Below, piece by piece: positions 3,996 through 43,145 of a stretch of DNA of 45,657 nucleotides. The notes beneath the pieces were generated by a model. That model made no database searches. It was not told the DNA's origin and saw only the letters and a program-made list of their open reading frames with translations. Origin of the DNA: Bdellovibrionales bacterium. Its GTDB lineage: Bacteria > Bdellovibrionota > UBA1018 > CAIMNF01. Both the position numbers and the translations under genes were made by a program. The stretch is from assembly GCA_018969905.1 (NCBI GenBank), contig JAGWXK010000008.1, positions 1-45,657 of the forward strand, given 5' to 3'. Every line of letters starts with the position of its first letter. Position 1 is the stretch's first letter.

Positions 3996-3996
3996 C

Positions 3997-7300: not shown

Positions 7301-7304
7301 TATT

Positions 7305-8595: not shown

Positions 8596-8596
8596 A

Positions 8597-9688: not shown

Positions 9689-11103
9689 GCGGTTACCTCA
9701 TTGTTTCGTTGATTCAGCATCAACATCAACATTTCACCAGTCGACTTACATCTTCCCCTGGGCAGCAAAGCGCGCTTCATACCTTGTGGAACTCCCTGGT
9801 GATTGATGACGGTTCCATCCTTTTCAAGAAAACTGAGGCCGGGCAGGATTGCATGGAAAAAGTTCCGTTCTTTCTCAAGGAATACACCGACTCCGTAAGC
9901 CTTTTTGGCTTCGATTCTGGGCAGTTCCGCACGCCCGCCACGAAACACAACCACCACGTCGGACTTTGCGCTTCCAAGAAGCGGAGAGATGCCGAGGGAC
10001 TCAGCACCCTTTAAATTCGCGGTTTTGCTCTTCATTTTCAATATCTGATCCCTCGGGCCATCCTGTCCTGAGGTTTCCACTCCCGGAGTCCCAAAACTCT
10101 GAATCTGAATCTTGGGCGACAAAGCCCGGGCGGCGTCTTGAATCGCCTTCATCTCCTCATTTGTTAGGTCGGTACCAACCAAAAAAAGCACACTGGCACC
10201 AGCTGCATCAGTCCGCAGCCCGGAGAGGAGCTCCTCCCACCTGGCAACGAGCCAAGAGTCTCCGGCTTTTTTCATCGGATCGACGATGCGGCTCGGATCC
10301 TGTACATATTGATAATTGAATCTGCCTTCATCACACATCCAGTACTTGTTGATCTCAAGATTCTCACGAGGCACACAGCGATAAACCACGTTCCCCTCAT
10401 GTTGAACCTCCATGTTGCAGCCCTTAGAGCATCCCTCACAGACCGTGGGCGTTTTTTTCAGCATCCACGCCCGCTTCTTGAATCGGAAATCCTTCAAAGT
10501 AAGTGATCCCGTAGGGCAAATATCGGAATAGTTGCCGGCATATTCGGTTTTCAACTGCTTCCCATCAATCGTTGTGATGTCGATATTGTTGCCGCGCTTA
10601 ATGGCAACCATCTCATGAATTCCGGCAACCTCATCCCCAAAGCGAATGCAGCGGGTACAGTGAATGCAACGATTCATGTTTTTCTGAATGACCGGCCCCA
10701 TGTCAACATCCACATAGGTTCGTCGCTCTTCGGAATGTCTCATGAACTCACTTCCGTGCCCGAAAGAGTTATCCTGTAGGTCACACTCCCCTGATTTGTC
10801 ACAAATTGGACAATCCAATGGATGATTCAAGAGTAAAAACTCCATCGTTCCGGCACGGCCCTTTTTAACGGCCTCGGACTGGGTTTTCACCACCATCCCC
10901 TCTGCCGCCTGTGTCGAACAGGCGGTCTGCAGCTTAGGCATCTTTTCCACTTCCACGTAACACATCCGACACTGGGCAACGACCGAAAGCCCAGGATGAT
11001 AACAAAAAACAGGAATTTCTATTCCGGCTCTTTTGGCAACTGAAACCAGGTTTTCTCCCGGCTTGAACTCCACTTCTTTTCCGTCAATGGTACACTTAGG
11101 CAT
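9685..11103 (-). CDS. nuoG: NADH-quinone oxidoreductase subunit G, short form with N7-type ligands
   Basis: Iron-sulfur subunit of the NADH dehydrogenase module, 472 residues compared with ~780-910 in many bacteria. Ligands are visible for the [2Fe-2S] cluster N1b (Cys34/45/48/62), for the His-containing [4Fe-4S] cluster (His94, Cys98/101/107) and for N4 (Cys146/149/152/196). Cys222/225/229/257 also form the C-x2-C-x3-C-x27-C pattern of the extra cluster N7. The molybdopterin-oxidoreductase-like part after N7 is reduced to about 200 residues. The start at 11103 overlaps the end of nuoF by 8 bases. Together with nuoE and nuoF it gives this complex I its NADH-oxidising arm, which the nuo' module lacks. 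Confidence 0.95.
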   Translation of the reverse strand: MPKCTIDGKEVEFKPGENLVSVAKRAGIEIPVFCYHPGLSVVAQCRMCYVEVEKMPKLQTACSTQAAEGMVVKTQSEAVKKGRAGTMEFLLLNHPLDCPICDKSGECDLQDNSFGHGSEFMRHSEERRTYVDVDMGPVIQKNMNRCIHCTRCIRFGDEVAGIHEMVAIKRGNNIDITTIDGKQLKTEYAGNYSDICPTGSLTLKDFRFKKRAWMLKKTPTVCEGCSKGCNMEVQHEGNVVYRCVPRENLEINKYWMCDEGRFNYQYVQDPSRIVDPMKKAGDSWLVARWEELLSGLRTDAAGASVLFLVGTDLTNEEMKAIQDAARALSPKIQIQSFGTPGVETSGQDGPRDQILKMKSKTANLKGAESLGISPLLGSAKSDVVVVFRGGRAELPRIEAKKAYGVGVFLEKERNFFHAILPGLSFLEKDGTVINHQGVPQGMKRALLPRGRCKSTGEMLMLMLNQRNNEVTA

Positions 11104-12376
11104 GGCGACTTTGTCCCTTCACGTAAGCATCAAATTCGGACCTGAATTTCTTCACAAAACTCTGGACAGGCATCGCTGCCGCATCCCCAAGAGCGCAAAG
11201 AGTCTTGCCTCCGATGTTGCCGGCAACATCCACCAGCAAGTCAATATCGGCGGGCTTCGCCTCACCATGAATCACTTTATGCAGAAGAGACTCCATCCAG
11301 TGGCAACCCTCGCGGCAAGGCGTACATTGGCCACATGATTCATGGGCATAGAATTTTGTGATTCGAAGCAGAAGCTTTACGAGATCGGTATCCTCATCGA
11401 TCACCATGATCGCAGCTGATCCCATCATCGTTCCAATTTTCATCAAGGGCTCAACATCATAAACAGCATCAATCTCATCCGCAGTGAGAACCGGAGAGGA
11501 TGAGCCGCCCGGAATTACTGCCTTGAGTTTTTTGCCCTTCCAAACGCCGCCACCCAAATCATCAATAATTTGCCTCAAGGTCATTGACCCGGCCGCCACC
11601 TCATAAACTCCCGGACGGTTCACATGACCGGAGAGTGAAATCAGCCGCGTACCCCCGGATTTGTCGATCCTTCCAAGTTTAGCAAAAACCTCCCCACCCA
11701 ACCGGATGATGTGAGGCACATTCGCAATGGATTCGACATTGTTTACAGCCGTAGGGCATGAAAACGCTCCGGAAACAGCTGGAAAAGGGGGTTTTACTCG
11801 GGGCTCACCGCGTTTCCCTTCGAGGGAATTCAACAGGCCGGTCTCCTCTCCGCAGATATAAGCTCCGGCCCCACGATGAACCGTGATTTCCAGGTCAAAT
11901 CCAGACCCGAAAATATCTTTTCCGAGATATCCCTTCGCACGAGCCTCTTCGATCGCTTCCTCTAGAAGCTGCGCTTCACGAACATATTCTCCACGGATGT
12001 AGACATAGGCGTGCTTGCAGCCGATGGCAAAGGATCCGATCAGAAGACCCTCAATCAAAAGGTGAGGGGTGTACCGGATGATTTGCCGGTCTTTGCAGGT
12101 TCCCGGCTCGGACTCGTCGGCGTTGCACACGAGGTATTTCGGCTTTTCGGAGTTCTTTGGAATGAAGCTCCATTTCATGCCCATGGGAAATCCCGCTCCA
12201 CCCCGCCCACGAATATTGGCTTTTTTTACCTCTTCTACAACCTGATCCGGCGCCATGCTACCAAGCACTTTTCTTGCAGCCTCGTATCCATTCATTTCTT
12301 TGAGGTAATAGTCCAATGTCCTATTCGAATCCTTCCAAAAGTGCTGAACAAAAAGGGTTTGTGGATTAGCGCTCAT
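11096..12376 (-). CDS. nuoF: NADH-quinone oxidoreductase subunit F, NADH/FMN-binding
   Basis: Subunit that binds NADH and FMN and carries cluster N3 (426 residues). The glycine-rich nucleotide site is at residues 57-69 (GRGGAGFPMGMKW). The FMN/NADH region GAGAYICGEETGLL is near 170-182. The N3 ligands Cys348/351/354 (CGQCTPCREG) and Cys394 (LCALGD) are all present. It overlaps nuoE by 11 bases and nuoG by 8. There is no counterpart in the nuo' cluster. Confidence 0.97.
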   Translation of the reverse strand: MSANPQTLFVQHFWKDSNRTLDYYLKEMNGYEAARKVLGSMAPDQVVEEVKKANIRGRGGAGFPMGMKWSFIPKNSEKPKYLVCNADESEPGTCKDRQIIRYTPHLLIEGLLIGSFAIGCKHAYVYIRGEYVREAQLLEEAIEEARAKGYLGKDIFGSGFDLEITVHRGAGAYICGEETGLLNSLEGKRGEPRVKPPFPAVSGAFSCPTAVNNVESIANVPHIIRLGGEVFAKLGRIDKSGGTRLISLSGHVNRPGVYEVAAGSMTLRQIIDDLGGGVWKGKKLKAVIPGGSSSPVLTADEIDAVYDVEPLMKIGTMMGSAAIMVIDEDTDLVKLLLRITKFYAHESCGQCTPCREGCHWMESLLHKVIHGEAKPADIDLLVDVAGNIGGKTLCALGDAAAMPVQSFVKKFRSEFDAYVKGQSRHA

Positions 12377-12851
12377 GCTTCACCTTCTCAATAAAATCAT
12401 TCATGGAATTGATGTCGAGATTTTCGATGTAATCATCATTGGCCATCATCACGGGGGCAGTCGTACACGCTCCGAGGCATTCTTCTTCTGAAAGAGTGAA
12501 GGCCCCATCAGGAGTGGTTTCACCACATTTCACTCCAAGCTTTTTTTCGGCGAACTCCATTAGTTCGTTCGCCCCCCTCAAACAGCACGCCACATTGGTA
12601 CAGAGCTTCAGGTGCATTTTTCCCACCGGCTTCAGGTTGTACATGGTGTAGAAACTCGCCACCTCCCGGATCTGGGCCTCATGAACCCCGATGTATTCTG
12701 CTATCTCTGCCAAAATCTCTTTCGGCAGCCATCCAAATTCGGCCTGCGCCTGATGCAGGGACGGAAGGATCAACGCCTTTCGATCGGGATATCTCGGCTC
12801 TTTCTGCCTCATTGCCTCGTAAAATTTTTCCGAAAGGAGTCTCTCTTTCAT
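12366..12851 (-). CDS. nuoE: NADH-quinone oxidoreductase subunit E, [2Fe-2S]
   Basis: Thioredoxin-fold [2Fe-2S] subunit (161 residues) of the NADH dehydrogenase module. The N1a ligands are Cys84 and Cys89 (LCTNVACCLRG) and Cys125 and Cys129 (ECLGAC). I start it at ATG 12851, which forms an ATGA overlap with the nuoD stop. The frame stays open upstream to 12953, but that extension lies inside nuoD, is rich in Arg/Gly/Cys and does not look like NuoE. The sequence from MKERLLSEKF matches the usual NuoE N-terminal helical bundle. Confidence 0.95.
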   Translation of the reverse strand: MKERLLSEKFYEAMRQKEPRYPDRKALILPSLHQAQAEFGWLPKEILAEIAEYIGVHEAQIREVASFYTMYNLKPVGKMHLKLCTNVACCLRGANELMEFAEKKLGVKCGETTPDGAFTLSEEECLGACTTAPVMMANDDYIENLDINSMNDFIEKVKHER

Positions 12852-14128
12852 CGATCCAGCTCTCCCGCAATTACGTTGATACTTCCAAGAGCAGCCACGA
12901 GGTCCGCAATATATTCTCCTTGAATCATGGGGTCGAGCCCCTGGTAATGCCAAAAAGAGGGTGATCGGATTCTCATACGATGAGCCATTGGGCCGCCCTT
13001 GCTGATGATGTAAAAGCCAAGTTCTCCATTGGCGGCCTCGAACGGGGTGTATGCCTCACCAACCGGAACATCAAAGCCCGTCATGAAAAACTTGAAATGA
13101 TGAATGAGTCCCTCCATGGTGTTGTATACTCTTTCTTTTTCTGGAATGCGGGTCCGCTTGTCATCGGCCCAAACGGGCCCCTTTTTAATTCGATCCGCAC
13201 ACTGAGTGAGAATGTTCAGACTTTGTTTTATCTCTTCAACGCGGACAAAATAGCGATCAAAAACATCTCCTGTCTGGGCTACAGGAACATCGAATTCCAT
13301 TTTGTCATAAAACATGCACGGCTGATCTCGTCTCAGATCAATGTCGAGTCCTGCTGCTCGAGCATTCGGCCCTGTATAGCTGTATCTCAGACAGTCTTCC
13401 TTGTTGAAGATTGCCACGCCCTTGGTTCGCTTCAGCCAGATCCGGTTTTCAGTCAGCAAGCGATCCATCTCCTCGATGACTTCCCGCGTTTGCTTGACCC
13501 AATCTTTCACCTCGCGCTCCCAACCCTCCGGTGCATCAGCCATGAGGCCTCCGATTCGTGTGTAGGAGGTCGTCAGCCTGGCGCCACAGAGCTTTTCAAT
13601 AAGCGTGTAAGCCCTTTCGCGCTGATGATATCCGTAAAGAAAATACGAAAAAGCACCAAGATCGACTGCATTGATCCCGATACAGATCAAGTGATCAATC
13701 ACTCTCGCCAGTTCTGCGCACATCATTCGTATCCACACCGCTCGCTCTGGAACCTCGACGCCCAGCAATCGCTCAACGGACATCGCGTAAGCGACATTGT
13801 TTGCGAGGGCGGAACAATAGTTCAAACGATCCGTATAGACTACGAATTGATGGTAGGTCCTGTTCTCACCAAGCTTCTCTTTCGCGCGGTGGGTATACCC
13901 GAATTCGCAAACTGATTTTTCAATGACCTCACCATTCAGCCTTGCCATACAACGAAAGGCGCCGTGCATTGCGGGATGCGTGGGACCGATATTCACTAGA
14001 ACCTTGGAGTCTTCGAAGATGTCGTCCGAATCCCTTTTCAGCGAAACATCATAGGTTGCTGGAAAGCCCCAACGGGAGACATCAAGGGGGGCATCCGTTC
14101 TGAAATTTTTGGAATTTTCCTGACTCAT
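12848..14128 (-). CDS. nuoD: NADH-quinone oxidoreductase subunit D
   Basis: The 49-kDa-type subunit (426 residues) that forms the quinone-reduction pocket next to cluster N2. Quinone-headgroup residues are present: His55 in GPTHPAMHG (residues 48-56) and Tyr104 in DRLNYCSALANN. The conserved C-terminus SINVIAGELDR is intact. It overlaps nuoC (ATGA at 14125-14128) and nuoE (ATGA). It is a stand-alone NuoD rather than a NuoCD fusion, since nuoC is a separate gene upstream. Confidence 0.97.
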   Translation of the reverse strand: MSQENSKNFRTDAPLDVSRWGFPATYDVSLKRDSDDIFEDSKVLVNIGPTHPAMHGAFRCMARLNGEVIEKSVCEFGYTHRAKEKLGENRTYHQFVVYTDRLNYCSALANNVAYAMSVERLLGVEVPERAVWIRMMCAELARVIDHLICIGINAVDLGAFSYFLYGYHQRERAYTLIEKLCGARLTTSYTRIGGLMADAPEGWEREVKDWVKQTREVIEEMDRLLTENRIWLKRTKGVAIFNKEDCLRYSYTGPNARAAGLDIDLRRDQPCMFYDKMEFDVPVAQTGDVFDRYFVRVEEIKQSLNILTQCADRIKKGPVWADDKRTRIPEKERVYNTMEGLIHHFKFFMTGFDVPVGEAYTPFEAANGELGFYIISKGGPMAHRMRIRSPSFWHYQGLDPMIQGEYIADLVAALGSINVIAGELDR

Positions 14129-14685
14129 TTGAACAGCTCCGGGTCGATTGGCTCGGGGGAAAGAAAAACCTGATAGCCCCGCAGTGGATAATCTTTTCGA
14201 AGAGGGTGGCCCTCCCAGCGTACGTCCATGAGAATCCTTCTCAGATCGGGATGGCCCTCAAAGCGTATTCCGAACATATCGAAAATCTCACGTTCGGCCC
14301 AATTCGCGCCCTCCCATAGAGGTATGAGCGAAGGGAAGAGCTCGCTTTCTGCGATTCGAATCTTAATGCGAAGCCTCACCTTGGTCGCAACACCCATCAA
14401 GTGAAGGATCAAATGAAAACGCTTCTCACCTCCCTCATCAGACGCCGTATAATCGGTAAGAAATGAAAGCCCATGAACTTCTTTCAGTTCCCGAAGAACT
14501 TCCAAAGCCCCCGTTTTTTCCAAAAACAAGGTCGGAATATCCACCGGATGGGCATCAGGAAGCAGAACCTCCTCAATATGGTCTGGAAACTTCGTCTTCA
14601 GGGCTTCGATCATCGAGCCCCACTGGGTTGAAAACTTTTCTTTCCAGCCTCCGTAAATTGTCGGAATCAGGGTTTGAACATTCAT
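14125..14685 (-). CDS. nuoC: NADH-quinone oxidoreductase subunit C
   Basis: The 30-kDa-type peripheral subunit (186 residues). The C-terminal family signature is clear: [22 protein letters not shown] followed by [12 protein letters not shown]. It starts at ATG 14685, overlapping the nuoB stop as ATGA. It helps hold NuoD, NuoB and NuoI together. No equivalent exists in the nuo' module, where the B-like gene runs straight into the D-like gene. Confidence 0.96.
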
Positions 14686-15185
14686 GAGCGTGACTCCTTC
14701 AGAGCCCGCTCTCTACGCTGTGAGTGCGTCTCACCCAAAGCGATCATATCCTTCAGGCGCAGCAGACCATTCAAAAGACCCTCGGGTGCGGGTGGGCATC
14801 CCGGCACATACACATCAACCGGCACGACCGTATCAATCCCTTGGGTGACACTGTAAACATTGAAAATACCTCCGGATGAAGCACATGCCCCCATGGAGAT
14901 CACCCACTTGGGATCGGCCATCTGATCATAAATGTTTCTCAACACCGGAGCCATTTTCAGGTTCACAATTCCCGCAACGATCAAGAGATCGCTTTGCCGG
15001 GGAGAAAAGCGGACAACCTCCGCTCCGAATCTTGCCATGTCATAGCCCGAAGCAAGGGTGGACATGAGCTCGATCCCACAGCAGCTCGTGCCGAAGGGCA
15101 GGGGAAAAAGGGAATGCTTCCTTGCCCAATTCACCATGTCTTCAAGCCTTGTTGTAAAAAAATCCGACGAGCCATCCTTACTCAT
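14682..15185 (-). CDS. nuoB: NADH-quinone oxidoreductase subunit B, cluster N2
   Basis: Carries [4Fe-4S] cluster N2, which gives electrons to quinone (167 residues). The tandem cysteines Cys35-Cys36 (GTSCCGIE), Cys101 (GACASSGG) and Cys130 (PGCPPAPE) make the four ligands. The start at 15185 is 3 bases after the nuoA stop, with GGGAG a few bases upstream. The gene is followed by separate nuoC and nuoD genes. Confidence 0.97.
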
Positions 15186-15188
15186 AAC

Positions 15189-15551
15189 TCACTCCCACTC
15201 CAGAGCGCCCTTGCGCAGAACGTACACATAACCGACAAAGAGCACCGCAACGAAGGCGAGCATCTCAACAAGGATGAAAGTCCCTGTACTCATGAACTTT
15301 TTGTAAACCACCGCCCAAGGGTAAAAAAATACGGTTTCCACATCAAAAAGCAAAAATAAGATCGCCACCAGATAGAAACGAACAGAGATTCTCTGTTTTT
15401 TTACGTTCTCATTGATGGGCACTCCGCATTCCGCAGGTGAGTCTTTTGTTTTATTGGGCAACTTCGGTCCAAGCCAAGTGGTAATCAGCAGCACGGCTCC
15501 GCCAATGCCCACTCCTGCTGCCATTAGGACCAGCACAGGAAGGTACTCCAT
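15189..15551 (-). CDS. nuoA: NADH-quinone oxidoreductase subunit A
   Basis: Three-helix subunit (120 residues) at the junction of the two complex I arms. The long first loop (SPAECGVP, carrying the family Cys) and the FDVETVFFYPWAVVYK motif are present. ATG 15551 has AAGGAA about 7 bases upstream. The preceding gap to the nuoN-like gene is only 36 bases and holds no hairpin or obvious promoter, so the canonical operon may be transcribed together with the nuo' genes upstream. Confidence 0.97.
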   Translation of the reverse strand: MEYLPVLVLMAAGVGIGGAVLLITTWLGPKLPNKTKDSPAECGVPINENVKKQRISVRFYLVAILFLLFDVETVFFYPWAVVYKKFMSTGTFILVEMLAFVAVLFVGYVYVLRKGALEWE

Positions 15552-15587: not shown

Positions 15588-16952
15588 TTACCACAAATTC
15601 AGGGGCGGATGACGATATAAAACCGCAATCAACTGCGGATGCAAGGAGGAGAGGGTAATGACTCCGATCAGATAAAAAACCAAAAAGAAGGCCTCGCCAG
15701 GAGTAAATGGCCTTTGATTCTCTTTGGAAACACGAACCAGAAGCACTTTTCCAATGATTTGAGTTGAAGCGATGAGCATTACCAGCCAGACCACCGCGAT
15801 CCCGATAGCCGAAATGAAATTGGAAGCACCCAATAAATCAGAGATCATCTGATAATATCGATCGCCCATTACAAGTGGGGGAGCGCCCGGAACGGCGATG
15901 AGGGCGAAAAGAATCAGGGTTTTATTTCTATACTCCGATTCCAGAAAGGCGTGAGAAAGCAATATGAAAGTAAGAAAGGTTCCAATGGTCAGAATGAACA
16001 AGCTAGGAATCGCCCGATCGCCTGGAAGAAGAATGGAAAATACCACCAAACCGATCAGGACGGGATATATGGCAGACAGCCAAGCGTGATGGTCACGCGT
16101 AACTATCGACTTAAGGGCGGACCTGAGGGTGATTGCAGAAATAGCGGCGCCAAGAAACCAACGAGGCATCTGATTGGACACTGCTGAAAAAGATTCCAGC
16201 ACCGGAACTCCAACCCTTGTCCAAAAAGCTATCAGCACAATCAGCTGGCCAAACCATGCCACCGCAAGCCCTAGAGGGCCTTTTCCCGTGTAACCACCGC
16301 TCGCAAGCGGCATCAAACCACACAAAACCACAAGGACAACCAGGGTCGCATGGGGCCAGCCCCCAGGCCCTGCCGCTTCCAAAGCAGTGCTCCACTCGGA
16401 AAACCTAACCGTGCGAAGGACGGAAGTGGAAAGAACGAACAGGATGGCGATCAGCAGTGACCAGGTTCCCATCCAAACCGACTTTTCCCTGAATACTTTC
16501 ACCCATGATTGAGAGCCTGCAGATTCGATGAAAATGACGCTGGAGGCGGAAAAATAAACCCCGAGAGAAGAGACAAGAAAGCCAACCAGGTTCTGCGAAA
16601 GCGCAACTCCACAGAGAAAGAGTGAGAAAAACTGAAGAAATAAAACAGCCCTCTGCTTGTCCCGCAAACTCAAATTTCCATGAAAAAACACCGAGAGCGT
16701 GAACCCTCCCAGAGACAATAGCGCAATCATCCGCAGAAAAAATGAAATGGAGTCGGACAAGACCATGGAGCCCGAAGCTTCAAAAAATGAAAGATCGGAG
16801 CGGAGAAAATAATAAACCAATCCAGAAAATGCCGAAATCGAAACAAGAATGGGATGGGATCCACGGGTGGGCATAAAAAACGCCGTCAGCAGAAGAGAAC
16901 CAAGAAGCAAACCCGTGATCAGGACTTCCGGAATGAAGTTCAAAAGAATCAC
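15588..16952 (-). CDS. NuoN-like divergent membrane protein of the nuo' module
   Basis: A 454-residue polytopic membrane protein with about 13 helices. The start is GTG 16952, overlapping the upstream stop as GTGA, with GGGAGG 6 bases upstream. The frame is open to 17126, but that part lies within the preceding gene and is not membrane-like. Similarity to NuoN is spread along the chain: PEVLITGLLL at the start, SFFLRMIALLSLGGF near the third helix pair, and a PGAPPLVMG segment where NuoN has AGMPFTVGF. The first-channel Glu position reads SSLG, and the channel Lys position reads LVVLCGLMP. I infer a NuoN descendant that can no longer move protons through the usual path. It is the last gene of nuo', 36 bases before nuoA. 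Confidence 0.8.
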   Translation of the reverse strand: MILLNFIPEVLITGLLLGSLLLTAFFMPTRGSHPILVSISAFSGLVYYFLRSDLSFFEASGSMVLSDSISFFLRMIALLSLGGFTLSVFFHGNLSLRDKQRAVLFLQFFSLFLCGVALSQNLVGFLVSSLGVYFSASSVIFIESAGSQSWVKVFREKSVWMGTWSLLIAILFVLSTSVLRTVRFSEWSTALEAAGPGGWPHATLVVLVVLCGLMPLASGGYTGKGPLGLAVAWFGQLIVLIAFWTRVGVPVLESFSAVSNQMPRWFLGAAISAITLRSALKSIVTRDHHAWLSAIYPVLIGLVVFSILLPGDRAIPSLFILTIGTFLTFILLSHAFLESEYRNKTLILFALIAVPGAPPLVMGDRYYQMISDLLGASNFISAIGIAVVWLVMLIASTQIIGKVLLVRVSKENQRPFTPGEAFFLVFYLIGVITLSSLHPQLIAVLYRHPPLNLW

Positions 16953-17941
16953 TTTAGCCCTCCCATCAGAAACCAGAGCATTCCGCCCCCGGAAACCCCT
17001 TGAACTGCAACCACCGTCCAAAACCGGATTCTCGCTTTTCGATTTGAAACCTGGGGTGTTTTGGGATGACAGAGAACCAGCGTAATTGCTTGCATGATGA
17101 ACCCGATGAATCCAAGAGCTGCCCAACCAAGACCCAGCTCAATCAGAACCTTCACCATAAAGTAAAGCGCCATGAAGCCGACCAGCCCGGGAAATCCAAG
17201 CGACGAAACCCTGGAAAAAACAAAATGTCCTTTTCCAAGTTGTAAGGCGCAGGTCATCAACACAACCGAACTCACAGCAAACGTGGCGATTGCGGCCAGC
17301 GCCTGACTCATTAAGGACTCGCTTGGAGCCGCCAAAACCAAAAGCGCAAAACCAATCCAGGAATGGCTCCAAAAAACCATAACAGAGCGCACCCTAAGTC
17401 GGGCAAGGCCCATCACTCCTGCGACAAGTACGGTAATACTACCAACGGACAGAAGGGCGTAGCGCCAACCCTCTTCCAAGTCTCCCGAAATCTCCTCTTT
17501 CCATCGCGAAAGAATGTAAATTGCGGCAAAAGCCGGAATGACCACAGATCCCAGGAATGCCCTCAGAGTGAGTCTCTCGTAAAAACGCGCGAAAAGCAGG
17601 GTGGTAACTCCATTTGGAATGAGCAACAACAAACCAAAGAGCCCAAGAATCCTTCCCTGCCAGCACGAGCCCAATGCATGTCCGAAGATTGCAATCACAC
17701 CCCCGGCCATGACCATCGCAAATCTTTTTTGTGCCACCCCGTTGTTTTCACGCCTCATTCCGACCGAAGCCTGAACAAATGCAAAAATCTGCACGAGAAG
17801 CAACATCAGAAGCCCGAACGAAATGGAAGTGAAACAAAAAATCAGAAGACACAGAAGAACGGGCACCAAATGCTGCCTTGAAACACAAAAAAGCCATGAA
17901 AGGACAACCATCGCACCCCAAGGAGAATATTCGAAAATCAA
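16949..17941 (-). CDS. NuoM-like divergent, internally shortened membrane protein of the nuo' module
   Basis: A 330-residue hydrophobic protein starting at TTG 17941, with a TTGA overlap with the previous gene and GGGGGTGA just upstream. Similarity to NuoM can be traced. A segment ending ARFYERLTLRAFLGS matches NuoM GERQKATAVFRFFLMSFLGS. SHSWIGFALLVL matches SISHLGFVMLGV. SSLGFPGLVGFMALYF matches ASVSLPGTLNFAGEFL. At the Glu144 position it has Gly (GLLLIP against ESVFIP). About 100 residues covering the channel Lys and broken helix are missing between these blocks, and the second Glu is also lost. The subunit therefore looks like a structural remnant of an antiporter-like protein that is still translated within the operon. 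Confidence 0.75.
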   Translation of the reverse strand: MIFEYSPWGAMVVLSWLFCVSRQHLVPVLLCLLIFCFTSISFGLLMLLLVQIFAFVQASVGMRRENNGVAQKRFAMVMAGGVIAIFGHALGSCWQGRILGLFGLLLLIPNGVTTLLFARFYERLTLRAFLGSVVIPAFAAIYILSRWKEEISGDLEEGWRYALLSVGSITVLVAGVMGLARLRVRSVMVFWSHSWIGFALLVLAAPSESLMSQALAAIATFAVSSVVLMTCALQLGKGHFVFSRVSSLGFPGLVGFMALYFMVKVLIELGLGWAALGFIGFIMQAITLVLCHPKTPQVSNRKARIRFWTVVAVQGVSGGGMLWFLMGGLK

Positions 17942-18783
17942 AATTCACCCCCATGCAAAAGCAATCCGGACAAAACACTGGTGATGACAAGCCCCATGAT
18001 CCACCAAAAAACCTCTTTGATTCCGGAATTGATGTCTGGCGCGACCGTAACGGACTCTCTCCTGGCCCAGGGTTCATCTCCTGAAACCAATCGACCACCC
18101 CAAAAAATAAAACTTTCCAAACGAGGCCTCAATCGCTGAAAGAAGCCAAAGAATCCTTCAGGACGCAAAAGACCCCACAGTGTCGTGGAAAAGAGTGATG
18201 CAAAAAGGAATCCCCCCGCAATCGTCAACTCCGGATTCGCAATCATGATCCCAATCTCGTCCTTGAAACTGGAAAGAATCAGTAGGGTAGCCAAGACTTC
18301 AGCCCATGACAGGACTCGATGCTCCCCCGGGATTTCTGTCCAGCGCGACACTTCAACCAAAATCCAATAGGAGGCGTGCCCGACAAGGGCAACTTCAAGG
18401 TATTCAGGATTGGGATGGTACTGCCTCAGAAACAGAATCGCGGGCAAGGTCCCGAGGGCACTTCCTCCAAAGTTCGCCGCAATCAAAATCACTCCGAAGA
18501 CCGAAAAAAACGCTCGGACAGGATCTGGTGCAATCGCACCCGAGAGAATGAAAAAAACACCCGCAAAATCCTTGATCTGAATCCATTTACCGCACCCCGC
18601 ACCCATTCGATGCCAGACCACCATGGCGGCAACAAAACACGGGATTACGGGTCCGTGAAAAAAAGCTCCCACCAGGACCATCAGAAACGGAAGAACTCTT
18701 CGTTCTCGGACCAAGGAAAAACCGCAAATCAAAGAAAGAAGAACCGCAGTTTGATCAAATCGGGTGAGTTCAATGCCGGTCAT
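17938..18783 (-). CDS. Membrane protein in the NuoL position of the nuo' module
   Basis: A 281-residue protein with about 8 hydrophobic segments. I choose ATG 18783 (MTGIELTRFD) over an upstream TTG at 18810 because GGGTGG lies just upstream; the ATG overlaps the K-like gene by 14 bases. It lies exactly where nuoL lies in the canonical operon but is less than half its length. Similarity to NuoL is weak: VALVGHASYWILVEVSRW may match FLGWEGVGLASYLLIGFW. None of the NuoL channel Lys/His motifs is visible. Assignment rests mostly on gene order. The C-terminal ~70 residues (PRLESFIFWGG...DINSGIKEVFWW plus one helix) loosely recall the NuoL C-terminal anchor. Confidence 0.6.
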   Translation of the reverse strand: MTGIELTRFDQTAVLLSLICGFSLVRERRVLPFLMVLVGAFFHGPVIPCFVAAMVVWHRMGAGCGKWIQIKDFAGVFFILSGAIAPDPVRAFFSVFGVILIAANFGGSALGTLPAILFLRQYHPNPEYLEVALVGHASYWILVEVSRWTEIPGEHRVLSWAEVLATLLILSSFKDEIGIMIANPELTIAGGFLFASLFSTTLWGLLRPEGFFGFFQRLRPRLESFIFWGGRLVSGDEPWARRESVTVAPDINSGIKEVFWWIMGLVITSVLSGLLLHGGEF

Positions 18784-19009
18784 TTTCCACCCGAACTTCA
18801 ACGCGAACAAATGCGTAAAGGGCCATTTGAATCACCACCAACAACAAAACAACTCCCTCGAGGGGCAAGACTTCTGAAAACCGTTCACAACACACAAACA
18901 CGAGAACCAAAAGAACCCTCATTGCACCTCGGGCGATCTCCAAGGAATCGATCGCGATAAACATCGAGTAAAATCCAAAAAAGAAAACACCCATGGAAAG
19001 AAGGATCAT
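18770..19009 (-). CDS. NuoK-like small membrane protein of the nuo' module
   Basis: A 79-residue protein with three hydrophobic helices that aligns end to end with NuoK of the adjacent operon: ILLSMGVFFFGFYSM against LVVSMVIFGIGLLGL, then a matching second and third helix. The start ATG 19009 forms an ATGA overlap with the J-like gene; longer starts lie inside that gene. The two NuoK membrane glutamates (38 and 74) correspond to hydrophobic residues here (about Met30 and Leu64). It keeps the NuoK fold and place in the operon but not the proton-path acids. Confidence 0.75.
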   Translation of the reverse strand: MILLSMGVFFFGFYSMFIAIDSLEIARGAMRVLLVLVFVCCERFSEVLPLEGVVLLLVVIQMALYAFVRVEVRVENDRH

Positions 19010-19368
19010 CGCCTTCTCCTTTCCACGCCCAGAGCCACCATCAGCATTGCACACAAAAAACCAAGGAGAACAACCACGGGCAAGGCCCAATCCTGCCCCT
19101 CTGCAACGGTCTTCACATCCAAACGGGGCCGTTCGCCAATCAGTGCCGGCAACAAAAACACAACCATCAAGAGCGCCAGTACCGAAGACCTAATTTTTGA
19201 AAGGAGTGGGACTTTTTTCTCGGTGAATCCGAGCAAAAGCCTGGTTCTTCGCAATTGAAACTCAAAAAGGAACCCGAGCACAAATACCGCGATTCCAAGA
19301 AATAGCTCGCGAGTGCCCAGCCAAATCGATACTCCGGCAAGTATTGACAGATCGATCCAGAGGATCAC
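19006..19368 (-). CDS. NuoJ-like membrane protein of the nuo' module
   Basis: A 120-residue protein with about four helices, starting at GTG 19368 (GTGA overlap with the ferredoxin-like gene and a strong AGGGGGGAG just upstream). The clearest match to NuoJ is at the C-terminus: DVKTVAEG...VVLLGFLCAMLMVALGVERRR against NVKAIAES...FLILAAIVATIALAKRK. The NuoJ third-helix signature (LVYTGAIMVLFVF) is not seen, and the protein is 60 residues shorter. Identification combines this C-terminal similarity with its position between the I-like and K-like genes. Confidence 0.7.
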   Translation of the reverse strand: MILWIDLSILAGVSIWLGTRELFLGIAVFVLGFLFEFQLRRTRLLLGFTEKKVPLLSKIRSSVLALLMVVFLLPALIGERPRLDVKTVAEGQDWALPVVVLLGFLCAMLMVALGVERRRR

Positions 19369-19757
19369 AGCTCCCCCCTTCCAAAACTCATCTTCAGGTC
19401 TTTCTTGTCAAACACTGCCGCCTGTACCTCTTTGGTTTGAATCAGTGAATTTGGCTCACAGACATCAACACAAAGACCGCAGAACACACAATTAGAAAAA
19501 TCAATGTCAAATTTCGAAACCCATGGCCGATTGTTTCTCTCCTTGATGTGTGAATCCACTTCGATGCAACTTGTGGGACAAGCCCTTGCGCAATCCCCAC
19601 ACCCGGTACACTTGTCAATTTCATTGAAGACCAAACCTCGAGCTCGGGCCGGAAAATCATCCTTTCCCCTTGAAGAAACAGGATCAGGATAAAACTCAGT
19701 ATCCACTTTGCGAGTCCCCCGAATGTTAAAAAAATGCTCAAGAACCCTCTTAAACAA
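19365..19757 (-). CDS. NuoI-like 2x[4Fe-4S] protein of the nuo' module
   Basis: A 130-residue ferredoxin-like subunit. Both cluster motifs are complete: Cys50/53/56/60 (CTGCGDCARACP) and Cys90/93/96/100 (CVFCGLCVDVCE). It should therefore bind two [4Fe-4S] clusters equivalent to N6a and N6b. The start is TTG 19757: no ATG or GTG occurs before the first cluster motif, and a perfect AGGAGG lies 8 bases upstream. It overlaps the H-like gene by 8 bases and the J-like gene by 4. The N-terminal region is shorter than in canonical NuoI, so the membrane-contacting helix may differ. With NuoB' it makes a continuous iron-sulfur path, although no donor subunit is encoded nearby. Confidence 0.85.
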   Translation of the reverse strand: MFKRVLEHFFNIRGTRKVDTEFYPDPVSSRGKDDFPARARGLVFNEIDKCTGCGDCARACPTSCIEVDSHIKERNNRPWVSKFDIDFSNCVFCGLCVDVCEPNSLIQTKEVQAAVFDKKDLKMSFGRGEL

Positions 19758-20547
19758 AGCCGCTTCCTCCTGACATCAGGGCAAACGCCAACATGACCAC
19801 AAGCCAAAAAACACCCGTAAGAGGCAAAAGATACGTCATGGAAACCCTCAGTAGATCCTCTTGCCTTAGTCTTGGAAAATAAATGGCAAAAAGACGTGAG
19901 ACGAGGAATAAAAGTCCAGCCTTCAGGTTAAAATCAAGAAAGTACTCGCCTCCACCAAGAAATAGCCGCACAGTAACCATGCACCATCCGTAGAAACGGA
20001 CTGACTCCAACCAGGATGCCCGCTCCAAAAAACCCCTGAAGGGATGCTCTTGAAACAAAATCATTCCAGCGATCTGAAAAGGAATCACAAAAATCAAGTG
20101 AAGAGGGGACCAGGAAATTCGCCCTAAATCCGCGGTCCCGGACAGACTGAATCCTCCGATGATGCACAAAAGAGAGATCCCTGATGCGACCGCGAATGCA
20201 ACCTGCCTTTGATCCGAATCAATCCTCGCAAGTACGCCTTCTTTTCCCGTGGTCATTGCCGCCAACGAGAAACCCGCAAGTACCATCCACGGAAACACGA
20301 GATATTCGAGCCTCAAGACATATAAAAATGGCAGAGCACATTGAAACCCAAAAAAAAGCCACACCCACGGAGACCTTCTGGTTCTGACTTCAAGGAGTGT
20401 ATCCACCCAAGTCTGCCAAAAAAAACCGGTAAGTGCGATATCCTTGCCCACTCTGGATTCGTGACGGGCCTGTACTCGCTCTGTCCACGAATAAACCAAA
20501 AAAGACACAGGAAAAATCGAGAACAAAGTGAAGGCAACATCAATCAT
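19750..20547 (-). CDS. NuoH-like membrane protein of the nuo' module
   Basis: A 265-residue membrane protein starting at ATG 20547 (ATGA overlap with the D-like gene). The N-terminal part aligns with NuoH: YSWTERVQARHESRVGKDIA then a WQTWVDTLLE region, against FVERRGSALMQNRLGPNRMG then LFQAACDVIK. The C-terminal part also aligns: RLFAIYFPRLRQEDLLRVS against WVRWTLPRFRFDQLMNLG. It is about 100 residues shorter than NuoH, and the acidic quinone-chamber loop (NRLPFDLPEGESEL in the true NuoH) is not recognisable. It probably anchors the D'/B'/I' iron-sulfur arm to the membrane, but I doubt that it forms a normal quinone entry tunnel. Confidence 0.8.
   Translation of the reverse strand: MIDVAFTLFSIFPVSFLVYSWTERVQARHESRVGKDIALTGFFWQTWVDTLLEVRTRRSPWVWLFFGFQCALPFLYVLRLEYLVFPWMVLAGFSLAAMTTGKEGVLARIDSDQRQVAFAVASGISLLCIIGGFSLSGTADLGRISWSPLHLIFVIPFQIAGMILFQEHPFRGFLERASWLESVRFYGWCMVTVRLFLGGGEYFLDFNLKAGLLFLVSRLFAIYFPRLRQEDLLRVSMTYLLPLTGVFWLVVMLAFALMSGGSGFV
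19766..19771 (-). promoter_or_regulatory. Shine-Dalgarno deciding the TTG start of the NuoI-like gene
   Basis: Perfect AGGAGG on the - strand, 8 bases before TTG 19757. It decides an otherwise uncertain non-ATG start and argues that the nuo' genes are still translated. Confidence 0.75.
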
Positions 20548-21557
20548 CGATCTACCTCCGAAACAGAAATAGACAAACTCTCCAAAATCAACGGAAGGTC
20601 TTCAATCGACTCCCCCTCGAGTGCTGGAAACATCGCCTCCTTGATCTTGTCCGATGGAGCTTGTACAGCGAAGGTTTCGATCCGGTGCTCCCGGTCAAGG
20701 GTCAATTCCACCTTCCAATTTCCCCGAATGGTTTCGAGCACCTCTTCCACCCTGACATCCGGAGAGCTTTCTGGGAGTTTGTGTCGGTAAACCCCGGCGG
20801 GGCTCTGCCGAATGAGTTCTGCAAGCGCCGCGGAGATCTCCCTGCAGCGCTCTAGTGAAAAATGAAGCCTTGACTCCACGTGACTCGCCTGACCATAACG
20901 TGTGCTTTCGATTGCCGATTGACTCACAAAGCCATACTCACCACCATCCAGAACAACACCCAAAGAACTCAAGCGATTGTGAAAGGGGTGAGTCCAGCAA
21001 AAAAGTCCGCGTATGCGGTCATGATCCTTAAGAAAAGTTTCAAGCCAAGACTCCAGCCGCACCTGAAATCCCTCAGTCAAATCATAGCGGGCTCCGCCGG
21101 GCAAAAGATAAAAATATCCGTATCTCGAACCGGAAAGAAGCTCAAAAAGATCAAGGAGTGTTTCCCTGTGTTTTAAAATGGAATGGTAAAGAATCCTGAT
21201 CCCGAGTCTCCAAGCCATTCTTGAGAGGTATTTGAGCTGAAAATTCAACTCGCTCAGTTGGCTCGAAATCTCTCTCAACCACAAAACCCGCTCTCCCACC
21301 TCGATGCCCACGGCAGCTTCGATCGCTTCACCGTACAGCCGATCCAGCAACAAAGCGCTCTCGGGCTCGATCCGACTAAAAATGATCTGTGCGGATGAAT
21401 AGTGCTTTCCAAGCATTTTTGATTCAATCTCTCGAGAGGCGAAACCGAATCCCGCCTCCAATTCGCGAATGACATCGCCATACATTCCCAAACGCAGTCT
21501 CATTGGCCCCGGCAGCCATTCGTGCACCGGACCAATCTCAAGGGTCTGCTGAATCAC
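20544..21557 (-). CDS. NuoD-like protein of the nuo' module, quinone ligands substituted
   Basis: A 337-residue soluble protein homologous to the 49-kDa subunit, starting at GTG 21557 (GTGA overlap). GPVHEWLPG (residues 9-17) aligns with NuoD GPTHPAMHG, and the quinone-binding His is Pro16 here. SRIEPESALL aligns with DRLNYCSALA, and the quinone-binding Tyr is Pro65. The middle block ending FSLERCREISAALAELI matches the NuoD helix FVRVEEIKQSLNILTQ. The C-terminus SLSISVSEVDR matches SINVIAGELDR, including the final Asp-Arg. It lacks the two CxxC pairs of [NiFe] hydrogenase large subunits, so it is not a hydrogenase. I infer a NuoD scaffold without an ordinary quinone site. Confidence 0.85.
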   Translation of the reverse strand: MIQQTLEIGPVHEWLPGPMRLRLGMYGDVIRELEAGFGFASREIESKMLGKHYSSAQIIFSRIEPESALLLDRLYGEAIEAAVGIEVGERVLWLREISSQLSELNFQLKYLSRMAWRLGIRILYHSILKHRETLLDLFELLSGSRYGYFYLLPGGARYDLTEGFQVRLESWLETFLKDHDRIRGLFCWTHPFHNRLSSLGVVLDGGEYGFVSQSAIESTRYGQASHVESRLHFSLERCREISAALAELIRQSPAGVYRHKLPESSPDVRVEEVLETIRGNWKVELTLDREHRIETFAVQAPSDKIKEAMFPALEGESIEDLPLILESLSISVSEVDR

Positions 21558-21937
21558 GGCTGCACCTCACGCAAGGAAATAACACCATTCATGATTGCTT
21601 CAGGTCTAGGAGGGCATCCTGTGACGTAGACATTCACTGGAAGCGCACCGACTCCGGCACCAGGAAACAAACCACCTCCGCATGCGCAGGTCCCCACGGC
21701 CATGACATATTTCGGCGAGGGCATGGCTTCGAAAAACTTCAAAACTTCGACTTGAAGAACTGAATTCAAAGATCCTTGAATGATCAAGAGGTTTGCCTGC
21801 TCGCCTTGCTCAGCCGGAACACAACCAAGCCGCTCCAGATCATAGCGACTGGACTCAGTTTGAATCCAATCATCACCACAACAAGAAATGCCAACGCGCA
21901 TGTACTTCAAAGTAGGCTTAAGGGGACTCATGATCAT
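21554..21937 (-). CDS. NuoB-like [4Fe-4S] protein of the nuo' module
   Basis: A 127-residue protein with all four N2-type ligands: Cys19-Cys20 (GISCCGDD), Cys84 (GTCACGGG, with an extra Cys86) and Cys108 (VTGCPPRPE). It is shorter than NuoB (167) at the N-terminus and in one loop. The start is placed at ATG 21937, inside the end of the upstream small gene; ATG 21931 is a possible alternative. Because the cluster ligands are fully kept while the neighbouring quinone pocket is changed, the cluster may have a different terminal acceptor or a structural role. Confidence 0.87.
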   Translation of the reverse strand: MIMSPLKPTLKYMRVGISCCGDDWIQTESSRYDLERLGCVPAEQGEQANLLIIQGSLNSVLQVEVLKFFEAMPSPKYVMAVGTCACGGGLFPGAGVGALPVNVYVTGCPPRPEAIMNGVISLREVQP

Positions 21938-22142
21938 CTTTCTTCGTTGACTCGTGCGTTGCGAGAAAGAACGACAAAAACACTACCATCATGACGAAAA
22001 TCAAGATTAAATACGGAATGATCCGGATTCGCTCCGTTACAAATACCGGTACAGTCACAAGCATCGCAACCCAAAGGTAAACGACAACTTGAGTGAACTG
22101 TGTGGTTTTGAGTTCAAAGGGCAAAATTCTTTTCGGATCCAT
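21918..22142 (-). CDS. Small two-helix membrane protein, first gene of the nuo' module
   Basis: A 74-residue protein with two hydrophobic helices (about residues 20-35 and 41-60), a basic turn between them (TERIRIIP) and a charged His/Asp/Lys C-terminus. It occupies the nuoA position but I see no convincing NuoA motif (no FDVE..F.YPW). It could be a strongly reduced NuoA or an unrelated small subunit. ATG 22142 lies only a few bases after a candidate promoter, with no clear Shine-Dalgarno. It overlaps the B-like gene by 20 bases. Confidence 0.6.
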   Translation of the reverse strand: MDPKRILPFELKTTQFTQVVVYLWVAMLVTVPVFVTERIRIIPYLILIFVMMVVFLSFFLATHESTKKDDHESP

Positions 22143-22154
22143 TTGTTAACGAGA

Positions 22155-22183
22155 AGGCTACTGAGAATGAAAGGGCGAGTCAA
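22155..22183 (-). promoter_or_regulatory. Candidate promoter for the nuo' (and perhaps whole nuo) operon
   Basis: On the - strand TTGACT (22183-22178) and TAGCCT (22160-22155) are spaced by exactly 17 bases in the 40-base gap between divergent mfd and nuo'. The -10 fits only 3 of 6 consensus bases. Transcription would begin about 5-7 bases before ATG 22142, giving an almost leaderless message. The dnaA upstream region shows a similar TTGTCT-17-TAACCT. Confidence 0.35.
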
Positions 22184-25100
22184 TGCCTCGTGGCGGCCAA
22201 GAGTTAAAATTCTACTCTCCTCTGAATCAGGCTCTTGCCTCAGTGGAGCGTGCCCGATCAAACCCTGGATCGATTCAGGTACTTTGCTTTCCCAGAGCGG
22301 AGTGGATTGATGATTTCCAACCCCTAATCGAGTGTCTGATAGAGCCTGGGGCCGAGGGCACCTCACCGATCGACGTTTGTATTTGGAGCCCCTGGGAACA
22401 CTCACCGTATTCACCAATTGCATCCTCCGTGAATCAAAGACGCGAACGACTTAGAACCCTTTCCGCGCTTCATCATCGCAGAAAATCAATGATCATTCTC
22501 TCCTCCGCGGAAACATGGAAATTGCCCACCATTCCCTATGACGAATACGCCGAGTCAATTCTTAATTTCTCCGCGGGCGAGGAACCGGGGAGCCGGGACT
22601 TCCTGAAAAGGAAATTGAAATCCCTAGGTTATCTTCCATCTGATCTTGTGGAAGAACCCGGGCAGTTCGCACTGCGTGGCGAGATCCTGGATATTTTCGA
22701 TCCCGGACGCAGGCTTCCGAATCGGATTGAGTTTTTCGATACGGTTGTGGAGTCAATCCGTACCTTCCACCCGGAAACCCAGCGTACACTGAGGAACAAT
22801 GCCGTGATCAACACGCTAAGCATCCACCCGGCAGAAGAGATCCTTTTTCCCTGGGATCAGACAGAGGCGGTTCTCGAGAAAATCAAAACCTACGCAGACC
22901 AGGAACAAATCTCGAGAAAAATACGTGACCCCATTTTTGAGAACGTGCGGAATGGCATTTTGCCCGAACACCACCGGTATTGGTTCCCATTCACCTACCG
23001 AACCATGGCAACGCTTGAAAACCATTTGCCAAAAGACGCGATCCGAATCCTTTTCGAACCAGAGCAGTTTTCAGCCGAGTTCGAAAGATTTATTTCAGGC
23101 ATGGAAAAGGACAAGGCAAAATATCCATCGCCCTACTGGATCACTCCGAACCTAGAGCGCCTCTTTCCGGATGCTTCAAGCAAGTCAATCTCCACCCTCA
23201 ATCATGCGGATTTAATTGTTCGCACCAGTCCGGACTCTCCCTTGGTCGCCTCACCTCTGATCGCCGAGCAGATTCACCCGGACCAGATTAATCCGTCAAA
23301 AATTCGTGCTTGGCTCGAAGAAGGCTTCTTGGTCTGGATCGGCTGTCGCGGACTAAGCCACCAAGAGCGGATTCGCTTTTTGCTAAAAAACGAATCCAAA
23401 AGTCCGGGGTTCCGAATCCTTTCCCACGATTGCGGAGAGTCGCTTATTTTTCCAGCTCAGAAGCTCCTGGTCCTTTCAGAAACCCTTCTTTTTGGATCAA
23501 ATAGGCTCGCGCGACCCGCTCCCTCGGGGGCCCACCCTCGATTTGACACTAAGGGCGATGGCCTAGAGTTCCGTCATCACGAAGATCTCTCAGTGGGAGA
23601 CCTGGTGGTTCACGCCGTTCATGGAGTGGGAAGATATGTCGGCCTTCAGGAAATCCGATCGGGCGACAAGCATCTTGGCGAATATCTTCTTCTAGAGTAC
23701 GCCGGCGGAGACAAGCTTTACGTCCCAATCTATCGCCTCAACACGATCCAGCGTTACATCACCTCCGGAGAGTCCGGCTCGCTCGACAAGCTGGGCACGG
23801 GTCAGTTCGAGAAAGCCAAACAGAAGGCTCGCGAATCCGCGAGAAAACTTGCGATTAACCTCGTAGACATTTATGCAAGGCGGGCTTTCATGAAAGGTCC
23901 GAAATTTTTACCTCGTGATGAGCTATATGATGAGTTTTGTGATTCATTCGAATTCACCGAAACGGAGGGACAGCTTCGCGCAACCCAGGAGGTTCTTTCG
24001 GATCTTGAGAGCGGAAGGCTTCTTGATCGGCTCGTTTGCGGTGACGTGGGTTTTGGAAAAACCGAGGTGGCAATTCGCGCGGCGTTCCAGGCCGTTCAGA
24101 GCGGCCTTCAGGTCGCAGTATTGGTTCCAACGACACTTCTCGCGTTTCAACACGAACAATCTTTTCGCCGAAGAATGGAGTCTCACCCGATTCGAACTGA
24201 ATCACTCTCCCGCTTCAAATCAAAAAAACAACAATCTGAACTCCTGAAAGACCTGCATTCCGGAAAAATCGACATCATGGTCGGAACCCACCGACTGCTT
24301 TCAAAGGATGTCGAGTGGAGCCGCCTGGGTCTTTTGATCGTGGATGAGGAGCATCGCTTCGGGGTGGAACACAAGGAAAAAATCAAAGCCATTCAAGCGA
24401 ACACCCATACCCTCACTCTCTCGGCAACGCCGATTCCCCGCACGCTGAATATGGCTCTCTCGGGCCTTAAGGACATCAGCACAATCAAAACTCCACCCAC
24501 CAACAGACAGCCCATCAAAACCTATGTATCCAACTACTCGCCAGAGATTGTGAAATCCGCGATTGAAGCCGAGCTGTCAAGAGGAGGTCAGGTATTCTAC
24601 CTTTACAACCGCGTTCAATCCATTCACGCAAAGGCCGAGGAAATACGAAAATGGATTCCTCATGCCAAAGTCCTCGTGGCCCACGGCCAGATGTCCGAGA
24701 CCGAAATCGAGGAGAAAATGCTCGAATTTTATCAAGGGCGCGCCCAGGTGCTGGTTTGCACCACCATCATCGAGTCGGGAATTGACGTGCCCAATGCCGG
24801 AACAATACTGATTCATCGGGCAGACCAGTTGGGCTTGGCCCAACTTTATCAGATCCGGGGGCGCGTAGGTCGAAGTCACAGAAAAGCCTTTGCCTATTTG
24901 CTCGTTGAGGAAGATCAATCCCTCAGCCGGGAAGCAAAAATGCGCCTGGACGTGCTTCAGCGGTTCGTTGAACTCGGAAGCGGCTTTCAAATCGCATCTT
25001 TTGACCTTGAAATCCGAGGCGGCGGCAATCTTCTGGGAGGCGAACAATCAGGCCACATTGCCACCGTCGGCCTCGACCTGTTTACGAAACTTCTCGAAGA

Positions 25101-25626
25101 GGCCATCTCGGAACTCAGGGGCGACAGCAAGACCATAGAGCAACAATCTTTCGAACCCGAAATCCAAGTTCCAGTGGTCTGTGAAATCAACCCGAAAACC
25201 GTGCCGGATTCTCGGACCAGACTCACACTGTACCGTAAGATCTCTTCAGCCCGAAACTCAGAACAAATCGATTCCTTTACAGAGGAGTTCATGGATCGTT
25301 TTGGGGAAATCCCGCCTGAAACCGAAAACCTGTTCTGGCTTATCAGAATTAAGAACCTTTTGATTCTCGCCGAAATTGAAGCATTGTCGATCACTCCTGC
25401 GAAAACATCGCTTACCGTCAGAAAATCATCGCCTGTGGAAATCAACGAGGTGATGAAGAAGGTAGCGGGCCCGAAAGGACATCGTGATCCAAGAATACAG
25501 ATCACCCCTGACTCCAAGATCATACTCCAGATTCCCTTCGAAAATTTGAAGAGTCACATTTTTGAACTGGAGAATTTTCTTCGGCAAGTCGCACCTAAAG
25601 CATTTGAAAAGCAAAACGCCCACTGA
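22183..25626 (+). CDS. mfd: Transcription-repair coupling factor
   Basis: Mfd (1147 residues) removes RNA polymerase stalled at DNA damage and recruits UvrA. In order: a UvrB-like N-terminal part (GYLPSDLVEEPGQFALRGEI, then DIFDPG, around residues 145-170), the RNA-polymerase-interacting domain around residue 474 (LVVHAVHGVGRYVG), and the RecG-type translocase with Walker A GDVGFGKTE near 620 and DEEH near 720. SATPIPRT, QIRGRVGRS and the C-terminal TRCF domain follow. Length is typical of the family. The ATG at 22183 is preceded by AAGGG. It is transcribed away from nuo' with a 40-base gap and begins a + strand run that ends with its functional partner uvrA. Confidence 0.97.
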   Translation: MPRGGQELKFYSPLNQALASVERARSNPGSIQVLCFPRAEWIDDFQPLIECLIEPGAEGTSPIDVCIWSPWEHSPYSPIASSVNQRRERLRTLSALHHRRKSMIILSSAETWKLPTIPYDEYAESILNFSAGEEPGSRDFLKRKLKSLGYLPSDLVEEPGQFALRGEILDIFDPGRRLPNRIEFFDTVVESIRTFHPETQRTLRNNAVINTLSIHPAEEILFPWDQTEAVLEKIKTYADQEQISRKIRDPIFENVRNGILPEHHRYWFPFTYRTMATLENHLPKDAIRILFEPEQFSAEFERFISGMEKDKAKYPSPYWITPNLERLFPDASSKSISTLNHADLIVRTSPDSPLVASPLIAEQIHPDQINPSKIRAWLEEGFLVWIGCRGLSHQERIRFLLKNESKSPGFRILSHDCGESLIFPAQKLLVLSETLLFGSNRLARPAPSGAHPRFDTKGDGLEFRHHEDLSVGDLVVHAVHGVGRYVGLQEIRSGDKHLGEYLLLEYAGGDKLYVPIYRLNTIQRYITSGESGSLDKLGTGQFEKAKQKARESARKLAINLVDIYARRAFMKGPKFLPRDELYDEFCDSFEFTETEGQLRATQEVLSDLESGRLLDRLVCGDVGFGKTEVAIRAAFQAVQSGLQVAVLVPTTLLAFQHEQSFRRRMESHPIRTESLSRFKSKKQQSELLKDLHSGKIDIMVGTHRLLSKDVEWSRLGLLIVDEEHRFGVEHKEKIKAIQANTHTLTLSATPIPRTLNMALSGLKDISTIKTPPTNRQPIKTYVSNYSPEIVKSAIEAELSRGGQVFYLYNRVQSIHAKAEEIRKWIPHAKVLVAHGQMSETEIEEKMLEFYQGRAQVLVCTTIIESGIDVPNAGTILIHRADQLGLAQLYQIRGRVGRSHRKAFAYLLVEEDQSLSREAKMRLDVLQRFVELGSGFQIASFDLEIRGGGNLLGGEQSGHIATVGLDLFTKLLEEAISELRGDSKTIEQQSFEPEIQVPVVCEINPKTVPDSRTRLTLYRKISSARNSEQIDSFTEEFMDRFGEIPPETENLFWLIRIKNLLILAEIEALSITPAKTSLTVRKSSPVEINEVMKKVAGPKGHRDPRIQITPDSKIILQIPFENLKSHIFELENFLRQVAPKAFEKQNAH

Positions 25627-26460: not shown

Positions 26461-26519
26461 TCGAAGTCTGTCGGTTTGTAATTGGATTCATTGGGAATCT
26501 ATGAGAAATCTTGGGAACT

Positions 26520-33490: not shown

Positions 33491-33498
33491 TGTAACTG

Positions 33499-33503
33499 TC
33501 CTT
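33499..33503 (-). promoter_or_regulatory. Shine-Dalgarno supporting the GTG start of atpB
   Basis: AAGGA on the - strand, overlapping the stop codon of the preceding gene and lying 8 bases before GTG 33490. It favours this start over GTG 33523. Confidence 0.55.
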
Positions 33504-37369: not shown

Positions 37370-37386
37370 CGCTTATTCCTGCTTCC

Positions 37387-38397: not shown

Positions 38398-38409
38398 GAT
38401 CAAAAACTC

Positions 38410-41993
<3,584 letters not shown>

Positions 41994-41999
41994 GTCCCT

Positions 42000-43103: not shown

Positions 43104-43145
43104 ATTCATTCACCACCTTGAGTGAAAGATGACTCTCATAAAAAC

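Follow-up and report, generated by a model that had tools for sequence, protein, structure and literature searches.

What does a second set of complex I-like genes do directly upstream of a complete complex I operon, and where does it come from? We addressed this question for a locus in a 45,657-nucleotide stretch of DNA (the window), part of a draft genome of 2.73 Mb (180 contigs, 97% complete) whose named relatives are Bdellovibrionales/Oligoflexia metagenome-assembled genomes. Here, the 14 genes of the canonical nuoA-N operon occupy positions 2544..15551 on the minus strand. Between nuoA and the divergent neighbor mfd (22183..25626, plus strand), the original prediction had placed ten overlapping open genes on the minus strand. 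We confirmed these frames at 15588–22142 and refer to them as the module, with a prime marking each of its genes.

Gene layout and subunit identities

According to the ORF coordinates, neighboring module genes share 4 to 20 bases; 40 bases separate the module from mfd and 36 from nuoA. This packing on the same strand, 36 bases upstream of nuoA, suggests that the module is co-expressed with complex I. A promoter and terminator consensus scan of the module returned one promoter-like site, upstream of nuoA, against five expected. Elsewhere in the window, atpB, gyrA, gyrB, and dnaA are found on the minus strand (32768–45201), which probably places both complex I loci close to the origin of replication. 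The region following mfd (25639–32353) encodes two PPIC-type isomerases, pdxA, a phosphomannomutase, and uvrA. Since genes of like size recur downstream of mfd in relatives, the neighborhood appears to be old and stable.

The order A?-B-D-H-I-J-K-L-M-N repeats the canonical one, as had been claimed, with the A', K', and L' slots assigned by position only. Strong NCBIfam matches to NuoB, NuoD, and NuoI were obtained for B' (21554..21937, 127 aa; 1.8e-31), D' (20544..21557, 337 aa; 2.4e-34, and 8.9e-19 to T. thermophilus Nqo4), and I' (19365..19757, 130 aa; 4.1e-20). Domain matches were weak for H' (19750..20547, 265 aa; PF00146, 1e-5, just below the curated cut-off) and for the shortened antiporter-like protein M' (16949..17941, 330 aa; PF00361, 1.8e-5). 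In the domain libraries, nothing relevant was matched by A', J', K', L', or N'. Profile–profile comparison (hhalign) with the full-length second complex found throughout the order (see below) gave 100% for B', D', and I', 98.5% for H', and 94% for both M' and N'. The antiporter-like NuoN relative N' (15588..16952) reaches 454 aa, in agreement with its relatives, after correction of its start to ∼16952, and aligned over its full length with canonical NuoN (83%). For J' (19006..19368, 120 aa), the direct comparison gave 15%, which rose to 87–88% through intermediates. In contrast, essentially no similarity to NuoA, NuoK, or NuoL of the second complex was detected by this method for A' (21918..22142), a 74-aa ORF with two predicted transmembrane helices that is kept in the genus, for the 79-aa membrane protein K' (18770..19009, corrected start 19009), or for the 281-aa membrane protein L' (17938..18783; 1%).

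Structure searches, which the original prediction had named as a way in which the proteins might be placed outside complex I, did not do so for M': its AF2 model (pLDDT 90) matched NuoM/ND4/NdhD in Foldseek with a probability of 1.00, TM of ∼0.6–0.8, and E of ∼1e-6. The model of L' is of low confidence (pLDDT 71) and found no match in a Foldseek search against the PDB, so that its assignment is positional only. Taken together, six of the ten proteins (B', D', H', I', M', and N') are complex I subunits, J' is probably a remnant of NuoJ, and A', K', and L' are placed by gene order only. The earlier count of at least eight proteins aligning with Nuo subunits thus stands for these six and probably for J'; for K', position is all that remains of it.

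The second complex in the order and its origin

In other genomes of the order, the same slot harbors a second complex I-type operon, which in the least reduced genomes comprises the full set ABCDHIJKLMN at near-canonical lengths (loci L042, L045, L050, L060, L061, and others). The NADH module NuoEFG is present neither in the module operon nor in the second complex of the relatives. All 11 full-length subunits match their Nuo counterparts one-to-one in profile–profile comparisons (93–100% on the diagonal); off the diagonal, notable matches are confined to the homologous L, M, and N and to C against D. Pfam searches with the L042 proteins also support this homology. Slot and gene order, with mfd as the marker, are identical in all of the relatives' loci that were read, and the operon lies roughly 20–200 bases from nuoA on the same strand.

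To follow the distribution, we used a NuoI' profile that carries the signature TE-x-YPDPVSSR and eight cysteines invariant in all 13 aligned sequences. At E < 1e-50, it matched 48 of the 55 genomes of the order. Absence of the cluster from close relatives, named beforehand as an outcome that would speak against the module, is therefore not what we observed. Five of the seven genomes without a match are only 56–82% complete. G005 and G008, which make up the remainder, belong to the window's own genus and are sisters in the canonical NuoD tree; in both, mfd lies directly beside nuoA and nuo is intact. Their lack of the module would most simply reflect one loss, and it means that the module is dispensable. 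Among 369 genomes of the phylum, matches of this strength outside the order were restricted to the class relatives G055 and G057, and a genome-wide scan with the single NuoB' sequence matched close kin only. The loci of these two class relatives (L047 and L049, respectively) encode a second complex with a fourth antiporter-sized subunit, reminiscent of "2M"-type complex I, and have lost the pump residues too.

The form found in the window is more reduced. NuoC is missing, as it also is from the second complex of G016, G026, and G012, and A, K, and L are unrecognizable. In the window's genus, L is halved (from 656 to 281 aa) and M is cut by a third (from 506 to 330 aa); H is likewise shorter than in the full-length 11-subunit relatives. 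The module of the window is thus very probably a shortened, genus-level form of an 11-subunit second complex that occurs throughout the order. Since relatives retain NuoC in the same slot, its loss appears to be secondary and the stripped form a later reduction in one genus. This departs from the earlier idea that C, E, F, and G were removed from a copy of the neighboring operon, because the ancestor in this slot had 11 subunits, including NuoC, and no EFG.

The tandem position and identical gene order would be expected if the adjacent nuo operon had been duplicated and had then lost C, E, F, and G. The trees argue against such an event. For NuoD, the genus form is nested within the second-complex clade (SH-aLRT 99), and the canonical NuoD of the whole phylum forms a separate clade (100). 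In a six-gene tree (B, D, H, I, M, and N), the second complex (96/100) and canonical nuo (100/100) are again apart, and the canonical clade also holds members from other classes within the phylum. Placing the second complex and canonical nuo in one clade was rejected (p-AU 1.4e-10), a result that holds under the model used and with the caveat that the D' branches are much longer than the canonical ones. With NuoC present in the second complex of the relatives as well, we rejected duplication of the adjacent operon and regard it as extremely unlikely. The module would instead represent an old 11-subunit lineage, with NuoC and without EFG. Of the "ancient operon duplication" originally proposed, an ancient second complex I-type assembly is what survives, and derivation from the adjacent nuo is not.

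Iron–sulfur ligands, catalytic residues, and selection

We then compared residues of known function (E. coli numbering), with canonical operons of the same order, among them that of the window, as positive control; these keep nearly 100% of them. The four cysteines of NuoB' that bind the [4Fe-4S] cluster N2 are present in the window and were found in 10/10 sequences of the genus and 10/10 of the order. The eight [4Fe-4S] cysteines of NuoI' are as invariant (13/13). The picture is reversed for the catalytic residues. Tyr277 of NuoD, which has a role in the quinone site, is kept in 3 of 24 second complexes, all from the deepest branches (the basal order member G014, locus L058, and two class relatives). 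His228 and Asp329, the quinone-protonating pair of NuoD (for this and the roles of the residues that follow, see PMC10212512), are kept in none of the 24. The window has P, R, and P at positions 228, 329, and 277, respectively. No second complex keeps NuoH E157, and most acids of the NuoH chamber are lost as well. Likewise, none keeps NuoA D79/E81, NuoJ Y59, NuoK E36/E72, or NuoL E144, losses that rest on the full-length relatives, the alignments of A, J, K, and L being unsure in the genus form. Of the pump residues, nearly every Glu/Lys in L, M, and N has disappeared: NuoM E144 and K234 (mostly Arg) and NuoN K217 are gone throughout, and NuoM E407 and NuoN E133 each persist in 1 of 11; M' and N' of the window lack the pump Glu/Lys. 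As read from these alignments, the second complex has lost the residues that protonate quinone and bind its head group, along with those of the E-channel and of the antiporter half-channels, and its Fe-S ligands are intact.

These losses form a graded series, which runs from G014, still in possession of NuoD Tyr277, NuoM K265/E407, and NuoN E133, through most of the order, where these are lost, to G016/G012 and finally the window's genus. The residues that replaced the former quinone site of D' are themselves conserved (P16 in 19/22, P65 in 19/22, E66 in 20/22) and form the motifs LPG and R-x-x-P-E-S/A.

Stepwise loss of residues, of NuoC, of half of L and M, and finally of the whole module (G005/G008), together with the long D' branches, could be read as the gradual decay of an ancient complex that is dispensable and heading for disappearance. 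Yet the frames are open in all congeners read. Relative to G002 and G009, dN of the module genes is 0.06–0.34, far below the synonymous divergence in all ten. Where computable, dN/dS is 0.03–0.29, compared with 0.083 for mfd and 0.01–0.08 for canonical nuo; in most module genes, synonymous sites are saturated. The ratio near 1 that the original prediction had associated with a decaying copy was not seen. I' and B' are the best conserved larger proteins, closely followed by D', and low dN was also found in A', which has only 74 codons. The comparison indicates purifying selection on the module genes, and we rejected a pseudogene cluster on these grounds. Purifying selection and conserved replacements together argue against simple decay. 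As the residues now occupying the former active site are conserved from family to family and the Fe-S ligands are fully kept, we also rejected decay as the sole explanation and consider slow decay toward loss very unlikely.

Possible function and comparison with known systems

Cluster cysteines kept under purifying selection and pump residues lost agree well with the earlier suggestion of a membrane-bound iron–sulfur assembly with a new job. The best explanation, to which we give about an even chance, is that the module works without pumping and without the classical quinone site, as an Fe-S electron relay in the membrane or as a redox switch. How it would work is more tentative. A soluble low-potential donor, presumably ferredoxin-like because the NADH module is absent and, with NuoC lost, part of a platform for one is missing too, may reduce the clusters of NuoI'. 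Ferredoxin has been proposed as the electron source of 11-subunit enzymes (PMC11238625). From NuoI', electrons would pass to N2 in NuoB' and on to an acceptor other than a deep-site quinone at the remodeled D'/B' pocket; the residues lost from the classical deep site make quinone an unlikely acceptor there. Alternatively, redox switching may be all that the cluster chain does. The shortened membrane arm would serve as an anchor and not for pumping. The module cluster contains no donor or acceptor genes. Several points weigh against a relay: another part of the cavity could bind quinone, the progressive shrinkage (L, M, and NuoC) fits slow decay too, and the module is dispensable, given G005 and G008.

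The main rival reading, unlikely in our judgment but deserving weight, is that the module partners the true complex I in a regulatory or structural way, by assembling with it, chaperoning it, or sensing its redox state, and does not transfer electrons to a substrate. Its constant same-strand position directly upstream of nuoA, at gaps of roughly 20–200 bases, and the retention of fold and Fe-S sites after loss of the catalytic residues are in line with such a role. On the other hand, G005 and G008 have nuo without the module, and the invariant maintenance of eight plus four cluster cysteines favors redox traffic. We find it decidedly unlikely that quinone is still reduced at a shallower or altered site without pumping, as by a non-coupled ferredoxin:quinone oxidoreductase. 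Architecture and N2 are kept, and the Tyr277 of G014 and two class relatives, together with the few pump residues of G014, indicates that the lineage probably started out with quinone as its substrate; however, His228-Asp329 is lost in 24/24 sequences, Tyr277 in 21/24, and most of the NuoH chamber acids are gone.

If the relay is correct, the second complex may, as we suggest with some reserve, add another functional class to the quinone-reducing and hydrogen/sulfur-reducing machines of complex I type, one in which a membrane-anchored Fe-S chain leads to a new conserved D'/B' site without pumping, order-wide beside complex I and probably co-expressed with it. We found no previous description of such a module in the literature searched. 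The locus offers a natural experiment on complex I: the Fe-S wiring is retained, and quinone site, E-channel, and pumps are discarded. A working complex I lies alongside to serve as the internal control, intermediates exist in graded steps, and the locus can reveal the role of complex I parts freed from coupling electron transfer to pumping. It is also a warning, since annotation by subunit homology would credit such genomes with two working complexes I.

Related loci came to light during these searches. The 11-subunit operon L088 (G045:C104) adjoins apparent [NiFe] hydrogenase genes and L095 (G032:C147) apparent 2-oxoacid:ferredoxin oxidoreductase genes, both read from sequence; these two and L089 (G186:C10) have nearly all catalytic residues intact. 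Other Bdellovibrionota families contain NuoB-C-D-I clusters without membrane-arm genes nearby: L092 (G113), L093 (G341), L097 (G060), and L090 (G352, at a contig edge). NuoD with a complete N-terminus keeps the quinone His and Tyr there, and the clusters possibly encode a soluble or partner-borrowing Q-module. On plasmids of Rhodococcus (L106) and Variovorax (L108), hydrogenase-4-like NuoD homologues carry RISGDTT where the Ni-binding CxxC would stand and would belong to plasmid-borne Ehr-like complexes.

Ehr complexes are relatives of complex I without the catalytic metal site, and relatives of D' carry a GPxHPAL-P motif reminiscent of the large subunits of hydrogenases. Membership in the Ehr/group 4 [NiFe] hydrogenases was nevertheless rejected: in the tree, D' falls on the side of complex I (SH-aLRT 99); it has RIEPES instead of the hydrogenase RVCGIC and no CxxC; and the full-length relatives of the module possess NuoA, J, and K. 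Compared with 14-subunit Nuo/NDH-1, its genomic neighbor, the module has homologous subunits but lacks the NADH module, the quinone His/Asp/Tyr, the E-channel Glu, and the pump Lys, and falls into a separate clade. Closest in subunit set and order to the full-length relatives are the 11-subunit enzymes (Desulfitobacterium NuoABCDHIJKLMN, cyanobacterial NDH-1, and archaeal Fpo), which share with the second complex the lack of NuoEFG and the Fe-S ligands in NuoB and NuoI. The form in the window differs from them in its missing NuoC and its shortened L, M, and H. With quinone-site and pump residues gone in addition, it is not a canonical Fpo or NDH, as had been supposed from the start; the other 11-subunit operons of the phylum (L088, L089, and L095) retain these residues nearly completely, whereas the second complex does not.
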